Of a DNA stretch of 7,159 nucleotides, positions 9 to 5,667 are shown in pieces (position 1 is the stretch's first letter; each line of letters begins with the position of its first letter). The DNA is from Candidatus Methylomirabilis sp. (lineage in GTDB: Bacteria; DYJV01), in contig DYJV01000091.1 of assembly GCA_020722945.1 (NCBI GenBank), positions 1 through 7,159 of the forward strand, given 5' to 3'. The notes beneath the pieces were generated by a model that saw only the letters and a program-made list of their open reading frames with translations, did no database searches and was not told the DNA's origin. Both the position numbers and the translations under genes were made by a program.

Positions 9-1760
9 TTACTCTGAATAAATTTTTTTCCCAATCTCAATGATATCTTTTACTCTTTGGGTGTATCTGTGCTTTTCTACTACTTTTTTGTAGGCTCTAT
101 TGATTATATTTTTTCGCTCTCTCTTATCTTTCATATATTTTGAGATTAACTCTTCAATCTCCTGTATACTTTTATAACATACAACTTCTTTCCCAATATC
201 AAAAAGATCTTCTATCTGACTTCTATAATCTGTAATTAAAAATTGTTTTGAAGCTGGAACATCAAAAACTCTCTGATTTACAGCATTTTTCATCTGTAGA
301 CTTGTTGTATTAAAATTTACTTCTGCTAAATTGTAAAAATATGGTAATTCATCGTAATAGTTGATCTCTCTATGGTATTTGGTTTTGTTATTGAAGTAGC
401 CTCTCCATCCAATATCACCAACTATCAGAGAATCAAAATTAAGAATCTCTTTGACGCAGTTGTATCGGTAGATTCTTGTTGCTTCCCATGTAACGGTGGT
501 TTCGTAATTTGTTTTGGATGTATCATCCCAATCTGAAAAAAATTTGTAAAGGCTGGGGAATTTTACCTTTATAACTTCTTCGACTGACCGAATGTTATCC
601 AAAGAGAACTCATAAGCAATTTCCTTGTAATATTTTAAAAACTTCTCCTCTACATTGGTTCTTTCGTAACTTTTTTTTACCTTTTCTATCATTGAATTCC
701 CAATAAAGATAACATCAGCTTTAAATTGGGAAAATTTATTCTCATTTATAGGGATTTTCTTGAATCTGTTTGTATCAACTCCAAGTGGCAGATAGAAGAC
801 ATTTTTAAAACCTATATTTTTCATATCTTCTATATTATCTTTGTCCCAGACAAGTAGAGTGGCTATATCTGATACGTTTTTCTTAAAATGTTTTATGATA
901 AGGTTTGGATTATCAACATACCAAGATAGAAGTGGCATCTCTATTTTTTCAAGAAAATTTATTAAAACTCCCTCTCTGTCAACCCCAAGATGATTTATGG
1001 TGAATATAAAATCGGGGTGAAATGATGATATTTTCTCTATCATCAGCTTTATAAATTCCTCCGACAGAAACTCCTGGTCAGATAGAATAAGAGTATCAAA
1101 TGGTATATCAAGCTCTTTTAGTGCATTGATAATTTCACCCATAAGGAAATATTTGGATGTTATGAGTAGAATTGCTACTTTACTATTTTTGAATTTTGGA
1201 TATTTTAGTTTCTCAAAAGAGCTCTCTCTTTTTAAATTAATCAAGTAATTTGAAATATCGTTGTAGAATTGTTTGTAAACTTTTAGGTAAGGTGGATAGA
1301 ATATAGGGTGTATATGATGGTATTTTTGTAGTTGGTTGATAAGATTGAGGGGGTTATCTTCGATGATGAAAGTTATATCGTTTCTTGAAAATATATCTGT
1401 AAGATCAAAAAGGGTCATTGCTTTTATAAAGATAGAGGGTTGATTTTCGGTGAGGATAAAATGTCTCTCAGTATTGTTAGTCAAAAATGGTCTGATGTGG
1501 AAAAAGAAAGCTGTTCCAAAAATAATGGGGGTAGCAGATGATAACCCACCTTTGTTACTTTCATAAAAGTTTTGACCCTCTTTTACAGGGTCAAATAAGC
1601 TATGAAAAGTAATTTTACCTATTTTAAAAGAGAAAGAGTTACCCCTACTATTTACTATTTCGATACTGTCAGTTGAAAAATTTTTCTCTAAAATATTAAA
1701 ATTCAAGTATGGATGAAATTTTTTGAGATGTGATAAATTTATTTCAAAAAAGTTGTCCAT
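9..1760 (-). CDS. CgeB/DUF3880-type glycosyltransferase with extra N-terminal domain
   Basis: Predicted cytoplasmic glycosyltransferase of 583 residues; no signal peptide or membrane segment is visible. Residues about 195-335 look like the DUF3880 half of CgeB-type proteins: a beta strand at 194-200 (KVAILLITS), the stretch PDFIFTINHLGVDREG at 249-264, SWYVDNP at 279-285 and LPLGVDTNRF at 324-333. Residues about 430-575 look like the C-terminal nucleotide-sugar-binding half (Glyco_trans_1_2): VGDIGWRG (447-454), NQRVFDVPASKQFLITDY (495-512), then a helical end. Residues 1-190 form an additional domain; FGTAFFFHIRPFL (81-93) and the acidic ILTENQPSIF (102-111) recall the N-terminal region of MAF-like flagellin glycosylation proteins. 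It starts 3 bases after the acetyltransferase stop (TAATTTATG); the nearest purine-rich run, AGGAAG, is 17 bases upstream, so translation is probably coupled. Donor and acceptor are unknown; flagellin or surface-polysaccharide glycosylation is inference. The family call is fairly secure, the role is not. Confidence 0.8.
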   Translation of the reverse strand: MDNFFEINLSHLKKFHPYLNFNILEKNFSTDSIEIVNSRGNSFSFKIGKITFHSLFDPVKEGQNFYESNKGGLSSATPIIFGTAFFFHIRPFLTNNTERHFILTENQPSIFIKAMTLFDLTDIFSRNDITFIIEDNPLNLINQLQKYHHIHPIFYPPYLKVYKQFYNDISNYLINLKRESSFEKLKYPKFKNSKVAILLITSKYFLMGEIINALKELDIPFDTLILSDQEFLSEEFIKLMIEKISSFHPDFIFTINHLGVDREGVLINFLEKIEMPLLSWYVDNPNLIIKHFKKNVSDIATLLVWDKDNIEDMKNIGFKNVFYLPLGVDTNRFKKIPINENKFSQFKADVIFIGNSMIEKVKKSYERTNVEEKFLKYYKEIAYEFSLDNIRSVEEVIKVKFPSLYKFFSDWDDTSKTNYETTVTWEATRIYRYNCVKEILNFDSLIVGDIGWRGYFNNKTKYHREINYYDELPYFYNLAEVNFNTTSLQMKNAVNQRVFDVPASKQFLITDYRSQIEDLFDIGKEVVCYKSIQEIEELISKYMKDKRERKNIINRAYKKVVEKHRYTQRVKDIIEIGKKIYSE

Positions 1761-2475: not shown

Positions 2476-3822
2476 TTATAAATGTCTCTTCCCAAGTCTT
2501 GCTGCCAGAAGGACAGGGTCCCATACTGGTGCAAATGGTGGAGAGTAAGCAAGATCGAGGTTGAAAAGATCATTTATATTCATTCTGTTGTATATTGCGG
2601 TTGCCCATACATCTATCCTTTTTACAGAATCAATAGGTCCGATAAGTTGTGCTCCGAGGATACTACCTTTACCCTTCTCAATGATTACAAATGATTTGAG
2701 CTTGTCTGAATTTGGATAATATCTTGCTTTTGTTCTACTGATTAGGTCGTATTTGACTGCATCTATTCCAAGATTTAGGGCTCTTTCTATTGTAATACCT
2801 GTTTTAGCAATACCTGTATTAAATATTTTGGTTATTAAGGTTTCTGTAACACCTTTACACACCTCTTTTTTTCCTGAGATATTAAGACCTGCAATCATCC
2901 CTTCTCTATTTGCCTTTAACGCAAGAGGAGTGAAAACCTTTTCATTTGTAAGGATGTTTCTTGATTCAGCACAATCCCCACCAGAGTAAATAAATTCAAA
3001 ATTTGTCTGGAGATAGTCATTTACGGCTATACTGCCCTTTGCACCGAGTGCTATGCCGGCATTACGACATATTTGGGTATTAGGCACTACCCCTATTGCA
3101 AGTAAGACAAAATCAACATCTATATTTCCGCTGTTTGTGGTGATAGATGTTTTAGCCCCACTATCTGATATTTGGGTTATTTTTCTGTTTAAATTGAGAA
3201 TTACCCCTTTTTTCTCCATTATTGTAAGAATATCTTTTGATATTTCAGGTTCAAAGATATTTGCAAGCTGGTCTCGTCTATGAACCATATGAACTTCAAG
3301 CCCTAAATCAGCAAAAGCTTCTACCATCTCAATTGCAATAATTCCTCCTCCCACAACGGCACAAGATTTTGGTTTGCTCTTTATAAGGAAGTTTTGAAGA
3401 AGTTTTGTGTCATCTAAGTTGTTTAGAGTGAAAACTTTATCAGAAGATATCTCAAAATCCCCCATATTGGGAGAAGCTCCTGTGGATATCATAAGGTAGT
3501 CGAAAGGTTGGTCAAATATTTGGGAATTAGATAAAGATTTTACAGTAACTTTTTTACTGTTGGGGTCAATAGCTATTACTTCATGTTTTAGTCGTAAATC
3601 TATTTTCCTATCTTCTATGAATTCTTCAGGTTTCATCTCAATAAGCTGTTCAAAATGGGAAACTGCTCCACCTATGTAGTAAGGCATTCCACAAGAAGCG
3701 TAAGAAACAAATTCACCCTTTTCAAAGACTGTAACATCCCACTCCTTACTCTGTCTCTTTACCTGACTTGCTGTGCTCATACCTGCAGCATTGCCACCTA
3801 TGACAATAATCTTTTTAGGCAT
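2476..3822 (-). CDS. FAD-dependent CoA-disulfide reductase / NAD(P)H oxidase-type oxidoreductase
   Basis: Flavoprotein of the single-cysteine branch of the pyridine nucleotide-disulfide reductases (CoA-disulfide reductase, NADH oxidase, NAD(P)H sulfur/polysulfide reductase), cytoplasmic, 448 residues from the chosen start. Counting from that start: FAD motif VIGGNAAGMS (7-16); active-site SYASCGMPYYIGG with Cys44; NAD(P) motif VVGGGIIAIE (156-165) with HRRD (181-184) at the end of the second strand, basic rather than acidic and so hinting at NADPH; second FAD motif YSGGDCAE (279-286). The C-terminal dimer domain carries ARYYPN (366-371) and AYSPPFAPVWDP (425-436), matching the two tyrosine positions of CoA-disulfide reductases. 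There is no rhodanese fusion. GGAGG at 3832-3828 lies five bases before the ATG at 3822, so this start is preferred over the ATG at 3834, which overlaps the GGAGG. It is divergent from the ODP-chemoreceptor genes. The physiological substrate (CoA disulfide, polysulfide, sulfur or oxygen) cannot be decided from sequence. Confidence 0.88.
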   Translation of the reverse strand: MPKKIIVIGGNAAGMSTASQVKRQSKEWDVTVFEKGEFVSYASCGMPYYIGGAVSHFEQLIEMKPEEFIEDRKIDLRLKHEVIAIDPNSKKVTVKSLSNSQIFDQPFDYLMISTGASPNMGDFEISSDKVFTLNNLDDTKLLQNFLIKSKPKSCAVVGGGIIAIEMVEAFADLGLEVHMVHRRDQLANIFEPEISKDILTIMEKKGVILNLNRKITQISDSGAKTSITTNSGNIDVDFVLLAIGVVPNTQICRNAGIALGAKGSIAVNDYLQTNFEFIYSGGDCAESRNILTNEKVFTPLALKANREGMIAGLNISGKKEVCKGVTETLITKIFNTGIAKTGITIERALNLGIDAVKYDLISRTKARYYPNSDKLKSFVIIEKGKGSILGAQLIGPIDSVKRIDVWATAIYNRMNINDLFNLDLAYSPPFAPVWDPVLLAARLGKRHL

Positions 3823-3827
3823 TTGCT

Positions 3828-3832
3828 CCTCC
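3828..3832 (-). promoter_or_regulatory. Shine-Dalgarno that decides the oxidoreductase start
   Basis: On the minus strand GGAGG lies five bases before the ATG at 3822 and begins inside the upstream in-frame ATG at 3834. Starting at 3822 gives MPKKIIVIGG, the usual short N-terminus before the FAD-binding strand; starting at 3834 adds four residues and has no clear site of its own. Confidence 0.65.
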
Positions 3833-3911
3833 ATAATTTTTCTTTACTCTCTTTAAAATATTTTTAATATTAATTCAATTAAATATATTACTTTTTTACT
3901 TTATTTTTTTG

Positions 3912-3965: not shown

Positions 3966-3971
3966 GGGAGG
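3966..3971 (+). promoter_or_regulatory. Shine-Dalgarno that decides the ODP start
   Basis: GGGAGG lies nine bases before the ATG at 3981. The upstream in-frame ATG at 3957 is preceded only by A/T-rich sequence with no site, and starting there would place this GGGAGG inside the coding region. Confidence 0.75.
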
Positions 3972-3980
3972 CATGTATCT

Positions 3981-4763
3981 ATGAAGCACAACAATGAAGT
4001 AGATATACTTAAAGGTGAAGTTTTATTTGAAGATGGAAATTATCAATTTATATGGCTTGGATGGGAAGAGAGAGATGAAGGATTAGTTCAGGTAAATCAG
4101 TATCTTATTAAAGATGGAGATGAAGGGATACTTCTTGATCCGGGTGGAGTTCATGTATTTCCAAGGATTGTAGGGAATGTTTCGAGGTATATAGACCTTG
4201 ATAAGATAAAAAATATATTTTTTACACATCAGGACCCTGATGTATCTTCTGGTATAGCTTTGTGGTTAAGTGTTACACCTGCAAAGATACATATTTCAAA
4301 ATGGTGGATAAGATTTCTTGCTCATTTTGGTGTTTTTGACCATAAAAGGGTAATGCCGATAGAGGACAAGGGTGGCACTCTCAGCACAAGTAGTGGTAAA
4401 AGATTTGAGTTTGTCCCTGCACATTTTTTACACTCTCCAGGCAACTTTTCACTCTACGACCCCAAATCAAAGATACTTTTTACAGGTGATATAGGAGCTG
4501 CAATATTCCCTGCAAATCAGAGGTATCTTTTTGTTGATGATTTTAACTCTCATGTTAAGATTATGGAAGGATTTCACCAGAGATTCCTTGCAAACAATAT
4601 AGCAGTTAAGGCTTACCTTAATAAAATTTCAAGATTTGATATTCAGATGATTGCTCCTCAGCATGGGGCAATATTCCCTGATCAGGATACTTCCAAAAAA
4701 TTTATAAATTGGCTTTCAGGGCTAAAATGTGGATCTGATATCATAAATCAAATTTACGGTTAA
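3981..4763 (+). CDS. ODP-type flavodiiron-like metallo-beta-lactamase protein (oxygen/iron sensor)
   Basis: Predicted cytoplasmic diiron protein, 260 residues from the chosen start, with one metallo-beta-lactamase fold of the flavodiiron branch and no flavodoxin domain after it (full flavodiiron proteins are near 400 residues). Counting from that start: VNQYLI (38-43) and LLDPGG (51-56) form the early beta strands; the metal motif is THQDPDV (82-88: His83, Asp85, Asp87), then HSPGN with His151, FTGDIG with Asp170 and PQHGAIF with His228. Compared with the flavodiiron HxExDH motif, Glu is Asp and the final His is Val88. The family includes ODP, the oxygen-binding diiron protein shown in Treponema to signal iron and oxygen to the chemotaxis kinase. 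The gene 50 bases downstream is a sensor-less chemoreceptor, the expected partner. An in-frame ATG at 3957 would add eight residues but lacks a ribosome binding site. An ordinary hydrolase is less likely given these motifs and this neighbour; sensing is inferred. Confidence 0.82.
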   Translation: MKHNNEVDILKGEVLFEDGNYQFIWLGWEERDEGLVQVNQYLIKDGDEGILLDPGGVHVFPRIVGNVSRYIDLDKIKNIFFTHQDPDVSSGIALWLSVTPAKIHISKWWIRFLAHFGVFDHKRVMPIEDKGGTLSTSSGKRFEFVPAHFLHSPGNFSLYDPKSKILFTGDIGAAIFPANQRYLFVDDFNSHVKIMEGFHQRFLANNIAVKAYLNKISRFDIQMIAPQHGAIFPDQDTSKKFINWLSGLKCGSDIINQIYG

Positions 4764-4800
4764 TTTTATTATAACGTCCTTTTAGTGGATTAAATTACAA

Positions 4801-4805
4801 AGGGG
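4801..4805 (+). promoter_or_regulatory. Shine-Dalgarno of the chemoreceptor gene
   Basis: AGGGG lies eight bases before the ATG at 4814 in the 50-base gap after the ODP stop. The gap shows no terminator and no clear promoter, so both genes are probably co-transcribed. Confidence 0.65.
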
Positions 4806-4813
4806 TATCATCT

Positions 4814-5641
4814 ATGAATGAAAATCTTAATTCCATAAAAAATATAAGTAAAGGGGTTATCAAATCCACTCTTCTTGATTCTATGATAGCAAGCACAATG
4901 GGTCTTTTGAATAGCAACTTTTCAAGGATTGTGGGCGATACTGATACTATTGCTACTGCTGTTGAAGAGCTTGAAGCTACCATCAATCAGATGAGCAGAA
5001 ATGTTTCTGATATCAATAAACGTATGGGTGATATACTGGATAAGAACCAAAAAATTGATGATGCTTTTGGTCAACGAATCAACCAGATGAGTGATGTTAC
5101 AAAGAGTGTAAGTGGAACAGTTGAGGAGATCAGGGAGCTTGGGAAGGCTACACAAAATATAAGTAAATTTGTTGTTGATATATCAGATATTGCAGACCAA
5201 ACTAATCTACTTGCTCTCAATGCAGCTATTGAGGCTGCAAGGGTAGGGGATGCGGGAAGAGGCTTTGCCGTTGTTGCAGAAGAGGTTCGGAAGTTATCCG
5301 AAAATACCAACTCACTTACCAAAAATATCTCAAAAGTCTTAAAAGAGTTTACCAAAAGAATTTCAAAGTCTGTTGTTGAAATAGAGAATCTCTCCTCTGT
5401 AATGAATACTTTTGAAACTGATTTTGTTGATGTCCGACAAACTTTTGAAGTTAATAAGAGATCCTCTGATGAAATTGGGATATCGCTTAATCAGCTTACT
5501 ATAGCTATTAATGAAAATTCTCAAGTTTTATCAAGTATTTTTGGCAAGATAGTTGATGTTGATGCTACTTCAAGGGAAGTGCAGAAGATCTTTTCTACAA
5601 TGTCAACTGTTAATAAAGCTATAAGCAATATGAAACTATAG
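4814..5641 (+). CDS. Cytoplasmic methyl-accepting chemotaxis protein without a sensor domain
   Basis: Short soluble chemoreceptor, 275 residues, with no membrane segment, HAMP domain or ligand-binding domain; almost the whole protein is an antiparallel coiled-coil signalling hairpin. The conserved tip that contacts CheA and CheW is at about 122-161 ([18 protein letters not shown] at 129-146, then [14 protein letters not shown] at 148-161). The arms are about equal, roughly 140 and 130 residues. A likely methylation segment is [10 protein letters not shown] (48-57), with the Glu-Glu pair at 51-52. The C-terminus (AISNMKL) has no NWETF-like tether for CheR or CheB. With no sensor of its own it needs an input protein; the ODP gene directly upstream is the obvious candidate, as in characterised ODP systems. 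No cheA, cheW or cheY lies in the window, so it must join an array encoded elsewhere. The family is very clear; the ODP partnership is inference from gene order and precedent. Confidence 0.92.
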
Positions 5642-5667
5642 CATAAAATACTTTTTATGCTATAGTT
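5634..5667 (+). terminator. Perfect 15-bp stem-loop over the chemoreceptor stop codon
   Basis: AACTATAGCATAAAA (5634-5648) and its exact reverse complement (5653-5667) flank a four-base loop TACT. The stop codon TAG (5639-5641) lies in the left arm. Only three pairs are G-C and there is no uninterrupted T run after the stem (CTCATTACTTTTAT follows), so it is a weak intrinsic terminator at best. It may act as a partial terminator or as an RNA-processing/stability element between the chemoreceptor and the protease, whose start is 14 bases beyond the stem. Confidence 0.5.

Follow-up and report, generated by a model that had tools for sequence, protein, structure and literature searches.

A gene pair in the window, which is the whole 7,159-base contig analysed and belongs to a 2.5-Mb MAG (98% complete, 5.8% estimated contamination), very probably encodes a two-gene oxygen/iron chemotaxis module, judging from homology to characterised proteins and from gene order in relatives. 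It consists of an oxygen-binding diiron protein (ODP) and a chemoreceptor without a sensing domain, and is a well-supported further example of a known sensor pair in an unstudied host, not a new system. The features concerned are as follows.

3966..3971, + strand: GGGAGG, likely the ribosome-binding site that serves ATG 3981 of the ODP (from sequence)
3981..4763, + strand: ODP, oxygen-binding diiron protein, 260 aa, metallo-beta-lactamase (MBL) fold without a flavodoxin domain (called from PDB phmmer, Pfam PF19583, residue conservation, trees and Foldseek of the model)
4814..5641, + strand: cytoplasmic chemoreceptor without a sensor domain, 275 aa, consisting of the MCP signalling hairpin alone (called from Pfam PF00015, AlphaFold helices, a profile of ODP-linked receptors and a consensus scan)
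5634..5667, no strand assigned: perfect 15-bp inverted repeat with a 4-nt loop, where the receptor gene ends (fold z-score -6.8)

Gene pair and host genome

Both open reading frames were found where the first-pass annotation had placed them, on the same strand and separated by a gap of exactly 50 bases between the ODP stop, which ends at 4763, and the receptor ATG at 4814, upstream of which lies AAGGGG. The ODP frame is open already from ATG 3957; the start is likely ATG 3981, because GGGAGG lies about 10 bases upstream of it and the alignment to relatives begins there. At the inverted repeat, a possible end of a two-gene operon, the T-run rule is satisfied on the minus strand only. An M48 peptidase gene follows the receptor and the repeat on the same strand, and the upstream neighbour of the ODP, a pyridine-nucleotide-disulphide oxidoreductase gene, is divergent. 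From spacing, strand, end repeat and divergent upstream neighbour, the pair looks like a two-gene operon. A scan of the sequence for sigma-70 promoters returned fewer matches than in shuffled sequence.

The divergent gene (window 2476-3834, minus strand) encodes a flavoprotein of the CoA-disulphide reductase/NADH-oxidase-like kind; it faces the promoter region of the ODP, and was not conserved beside the ODP in the relatives read. At window 9-1760 (minus strand) lies a glycosyltransferase gene whose product weakly matches the Maf flagellin-glycosylation N-terminal domain. Window composition fits the large contigs of the MAG (GC 33.0%, tetranucleotide r 0.97-0.98), in which no 16S rRNA was found. 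The host MAG encodes two CheAs, six CheW domains (CheV-like proteins included), FliG and at least seven other MCPs.

Identity of the diiron protein and its receptor

Searched against the PDB with phmmer, the product of 3981-4763 matched 6qrq (E 1.5e-101) and 6qnm (E 2.9e-93), both named oxygen-binding di-iron protein, and the best flavodiiron proteins (FDPs) in the same search reached E 1.8e-10. Pairwise identity was 56.5% to the ODP of Thermotoga maritima (6qrq, which has zero branch length to a Thermotogota sequence in the tree) and 54.0% to that of Treponema denticola (6qnm). The Pfam ODP model PF19583 scored 252.3 bits against a cut-off of 27.2 (E 4.3e-75), a match that is not decisive by itself because the model matches FDPs too. 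A structure model of the ODP alone, a prediction that the first-pass annotation had proposed and which came out with moderate confidence (pLDDT 69.9), was compared with solved structures by Foldseek, and the best matches were 6qwo, 6qrq, 6qnm and 6r9n, ahead of all FDPs; by their titles, 6qwo is from T. maritima, 6qnm is from T. denticola and 6r9n is a 'Peroxy diiron species of chemotaxis sensor ODP'.

The description of a single-domain flavodiiron-like protein with His/Asp motifs was borne out in the particular form of an ODP. Pfam, the model and Foldseek all gave a single MBL-fold domain in the 260 aa, with no flavodoxin domain. The ligand-type residues H83, D85, D87, H151, D170, Q227 and H228 (counted from the M at 3981) are all intact, and the metal-site pattern HQDPD...H...D...QH carries the ODP-specific Gln, described as an unusual ODP ligand (PMC7785958), in place of a motif 2 His. 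These seven residues are invariant over 55 core ODPs, 11 second-clade ODPs and 21 Nitrospirota ODPs. Phylogeny agreed: the protein falls inside the single-domain ODPs, a group supported at 100/99 (100/98 in a tree with more rows), with fused ODPs outside that group and FDPs far apart from the ODPs at 100/100. With Nitrospirota sequences added, the window ODP and the paired Nitrospirota ODPs form sister branches (98/88).

It is therefore highly improbable that the gene encodes an MBL-fold hydrolase or an oxygen/NO reductase of flavodiiron-like type that stands beside a receptor gene by chance. Such an enzyme would share the fold and could account for the weak but significant matches to FDPs, but in FDPs the sequence HxExDH stands where the ODP has HQDPDV, the extra histidine being V88 here, and D or S occupies the position of the ODP-type Q227. 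Tested for membership of the FDPs, the protein showed HQDPDV and no second domain and was not placed among them; the tree, the receptor pairing conserved over phyla (see below) and a separate 410-aa FDP-like protein of the host's own, on C44, likewise argue against an enzyme. By these comparisons the product of 3981-4763 is an ODP. It would be expected to bind iron and oxygen and to act in motility because characterised homologues are about 55% identical.

The receptor matched Pfam MCPsignal (PF00015) at E 3.7e-34, and no other Pfam domain rose above its own cut-off. No transmembrane segment was found (19-residue hydropathy peaks at 1.16), and AlphaFold gave two long helices, residues 2-143 and 147-271, with a turn between, in a model whose pTM is only 0.46 and which supports no atomic claim. 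The earlier description of a 275-residue receptor that is only a signalling hairpin, with neither a transmembrane nor a sensing domain, thus holds. The hairpin tip, at about residues 139-146, is intact and closely resembles the tips of the host membrane receptors, a likeness in sequence which suggests that the receptor can be part of arrays of the same type. A profile built from 51 ODP-linked receptors, with the window receptor left out, scored 191 bits to it over residues 6-274 and at most 118 bits, in pieces, to the host's own MCPs; by this profile and by its identity to Nitrospirota partners (see below), the receptor belongs to the same subfamily as other ODP partners.

One methylation-type consensus was found in the receptor, at residues 47-56. 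Such a consensus occurs in only 5 of 52 ODP-linked receptors compared, and the Nitrospirota partner receptor in L104 has a similar site, ATAIEEIDAT. Most ODP partners from Thermotogota and the spirochaetes have no such site, so the window receptor might, unlike them, be capable of adaptation by methylation; this, and/or a non-flagellar or mixed output of the pair, is distinctly improbable.

Conservation of the pairing

An ODP and a receptor were paired in all 64 loci counted (30 from Thermotogota, 19 from the spirochaete phylum and the 15 closest from Nitrospirota). Within Thermotogota an ODP was present in 57 of 103 genomes, and a receptor of 276-329 aa lay immediately downstream of it in 30/30 loci read. 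The spirochaete phylum had an ODP in 30/296 genomes at E 1e-50; all 19 ODPs of the closer kind had a receptor arranged likewise, and 11 from a second clade did not. Nitrospirota had an ODP in 59 of 245 genomes, and a receptor lay downstream in 15/15 newly read loci with an ODP 61-67% identical to that of the window. The Nitrospirota pairs L104-L118, in this same range of ODP identity, have the order and strand of the window pair and receptors 44-50% identical to the window receptor over all 275 residues (ten compared); unlike it, they belong to another host phylum and their intergenic distance varies. The closest pairs of all are from Nitrospirota (ODP 67%, receptor about 49% identical). The same pairing with a receptor thus holds across Thermotogota, Nitrospirota and the spirochaete phylum, in line with the statement that similar pairs occur in several phyla, including one with a Thermotoga ODP. 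Distances between ODPs and between receptors correlate (r 0.92 over 52 loci), as expected if the two were inherited together.

Other arrangements were seen among Nitrospirota. L010 (a Nitrospirae MAG, ODP 63% identical) is the exception at this level of identity: its ODP gene belongs to a che operon, preceded by two membrane receptors and followed by cheR, cheD and cheB, with no small receptor beside it, a layout which implies that an adjacent small receptor is not obligatory. Among ODPs at about 51% identity, those of L119 and L120 have a 228-aa partner, that of L121 has a 418-aa partner upstream, and for that of L122 no receptor partner was seen; the more distant L123-L137 were mostly without a receptor neighbour. 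Selenocysteine in Nitrospirota ODPs, considered on account of reported internal TGA codons, was rejected, there being no stop inside the aligned proteins.

In the second ODP clade of the spirochaete phylum (L090-L099), a protein of 180-206 aa is encoded directly upstream of the ODP (for example L096:941-1489, L092:2236-2853, L094:835-1437 and L098:842-1441). All that this protein retains of the MCP hairpin is a partly decayed tip, with MCPsignal at 36-37 bits in the best and undetectable in those of L098, L099 and L093; it may be a receptor that has been shortened and is degenerating, or else an adaptor. A receptor-first gene order is already reported in PMC7319448.

Proposed mechanism and known systems

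The mechanism that best explains the window pair, because of homology to characterised ODPs, begins with a soluble MBL-fold ODP that would hold two irons through His/Asp ligands. When loaded with Fe(II), it would react with oxygen to give a stable peroxo adduct, as established by others for the T. denticola ODP and presumed for that of the window. The iron/oxygen state of the ODP would then be passed to the neighbouring receptor, itself without a sensing domain, whose conserved hairpin tip would insert into a CheA/CheW array together with the host membrane receptors and which would alter CheA activity and, through CheY phosphorylation, flagellar behaviour. For the window ODP we infer metal identity and oxygen binding, and for the pair the ODP-receptor contact, the choice between the two host CheAs and the direction in which the cell responds. 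Published work provides the precedent: the T. denticola ODP acts in chemotaxis and its loss changes CheA ordering (PMC7666581), the genetically coupled TDE2496 is without transmembrane and sensing modules and can modulate CheA (PMC7666581), and ODP, besides binding iron and oxygen, interacts with cognate receptors (PMC6978683). The reading of the pair as an oxygen/iron chemotaxis module, put forward by the first-pass annotation, is supported, and none of the refutation tests that could be computed went against it.

Two variants of this mechanism were weighed. The pair might sense mainly Fe(II) or redox state, with oxygen secondary in an anaerobe, and the title of Muok 2019, as cited in PMC6978683, does call ODP an Fe(II) and oxygen sensor; this reading is somewhat unlikely, since the binding of oxygen is documented better (peroxy form, 6r9n), although sequence does not separate the two kinds of sensing. 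It is quite unlikely that the output of a working sensor pair runs by way of the second CheA (cluster on C156 or C44) to a non-flagellar pathway and not to swimming: the tip of the receptor closely resembles those of the host membrane receptors, the characterised homologue acts in chemotaxis and the host has FliG, against which stand the presence of two CheAs and the fusion of ODP domains elsewhere to GGDEF, cyclase or receiver domains, one such fusion being in a second genome of the host's phylum.

Compared with the T. denticola ODP (TDE2498; 6qnm, 6r9n) and TDE2496, the window pair has an ODP 54% identical with the same ligands and, as there, a coupled receptor without a transmembrane or sensing module (PMC7666581); it differs in host lineage, and its receptor shares no more than about 25-28% identity with those encoded at spirochaete ODP loci. 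With T. maritima (6qrq, 6qwo) it shares gene order: in the Thermotogota family of that ODP, too, the ODP gene is directly followed by one for a receptor of similar length; unlike the window receptor, most Thermotogota partner receptors are without the methylation consensus, and the receptor has diverged.

The first-pass annotation was right that the system type is already described (PMC7666581, PMC7319448, PMC6978683); according to citing papers, Muok 2019 published it together with its gene orders and its distribution. For that 2019 analysis, PMC7319448 describes the recruitment of ODPs to bacterial and archaeal signalling, two ODP groups that share operons with receptor genes, in either of two gene orders, and other ODPs with different signalling genes or as fusions. 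The arrangements found here fit that description. The window contributes a well-supported ODP chemotaxis pair from a phylum of which few genomes have been sampled, and the survey shows the pairing to be regular among close relatives in Thermotogota, spirochaetes and Nitrospirota; both aid the annotation of MBL-fold proteins otherwise called hydrolases, and raise no new question.

ODP fusions (ODP-GGDEF, REC-ODP, ODP-cyclase), described as a group in PMC7319448, have the same HQDPD...QHG site; they differ in that the sensor is joined to another output, and lie outside the single-domain ODPs in the tree. In a second genome of the host's phylum (L030:2539-4254, minus strand) an ODP is fused to a GGDEF domain, so that oxygen/iron sensing there may feed c-di-GMP instead of chemotaxis. 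An ODP is fused to a nucleotide-cyclase-like domain in L034:3981-5606, and stands behind a receiver domain in L032:2877-4655 (minus strand).
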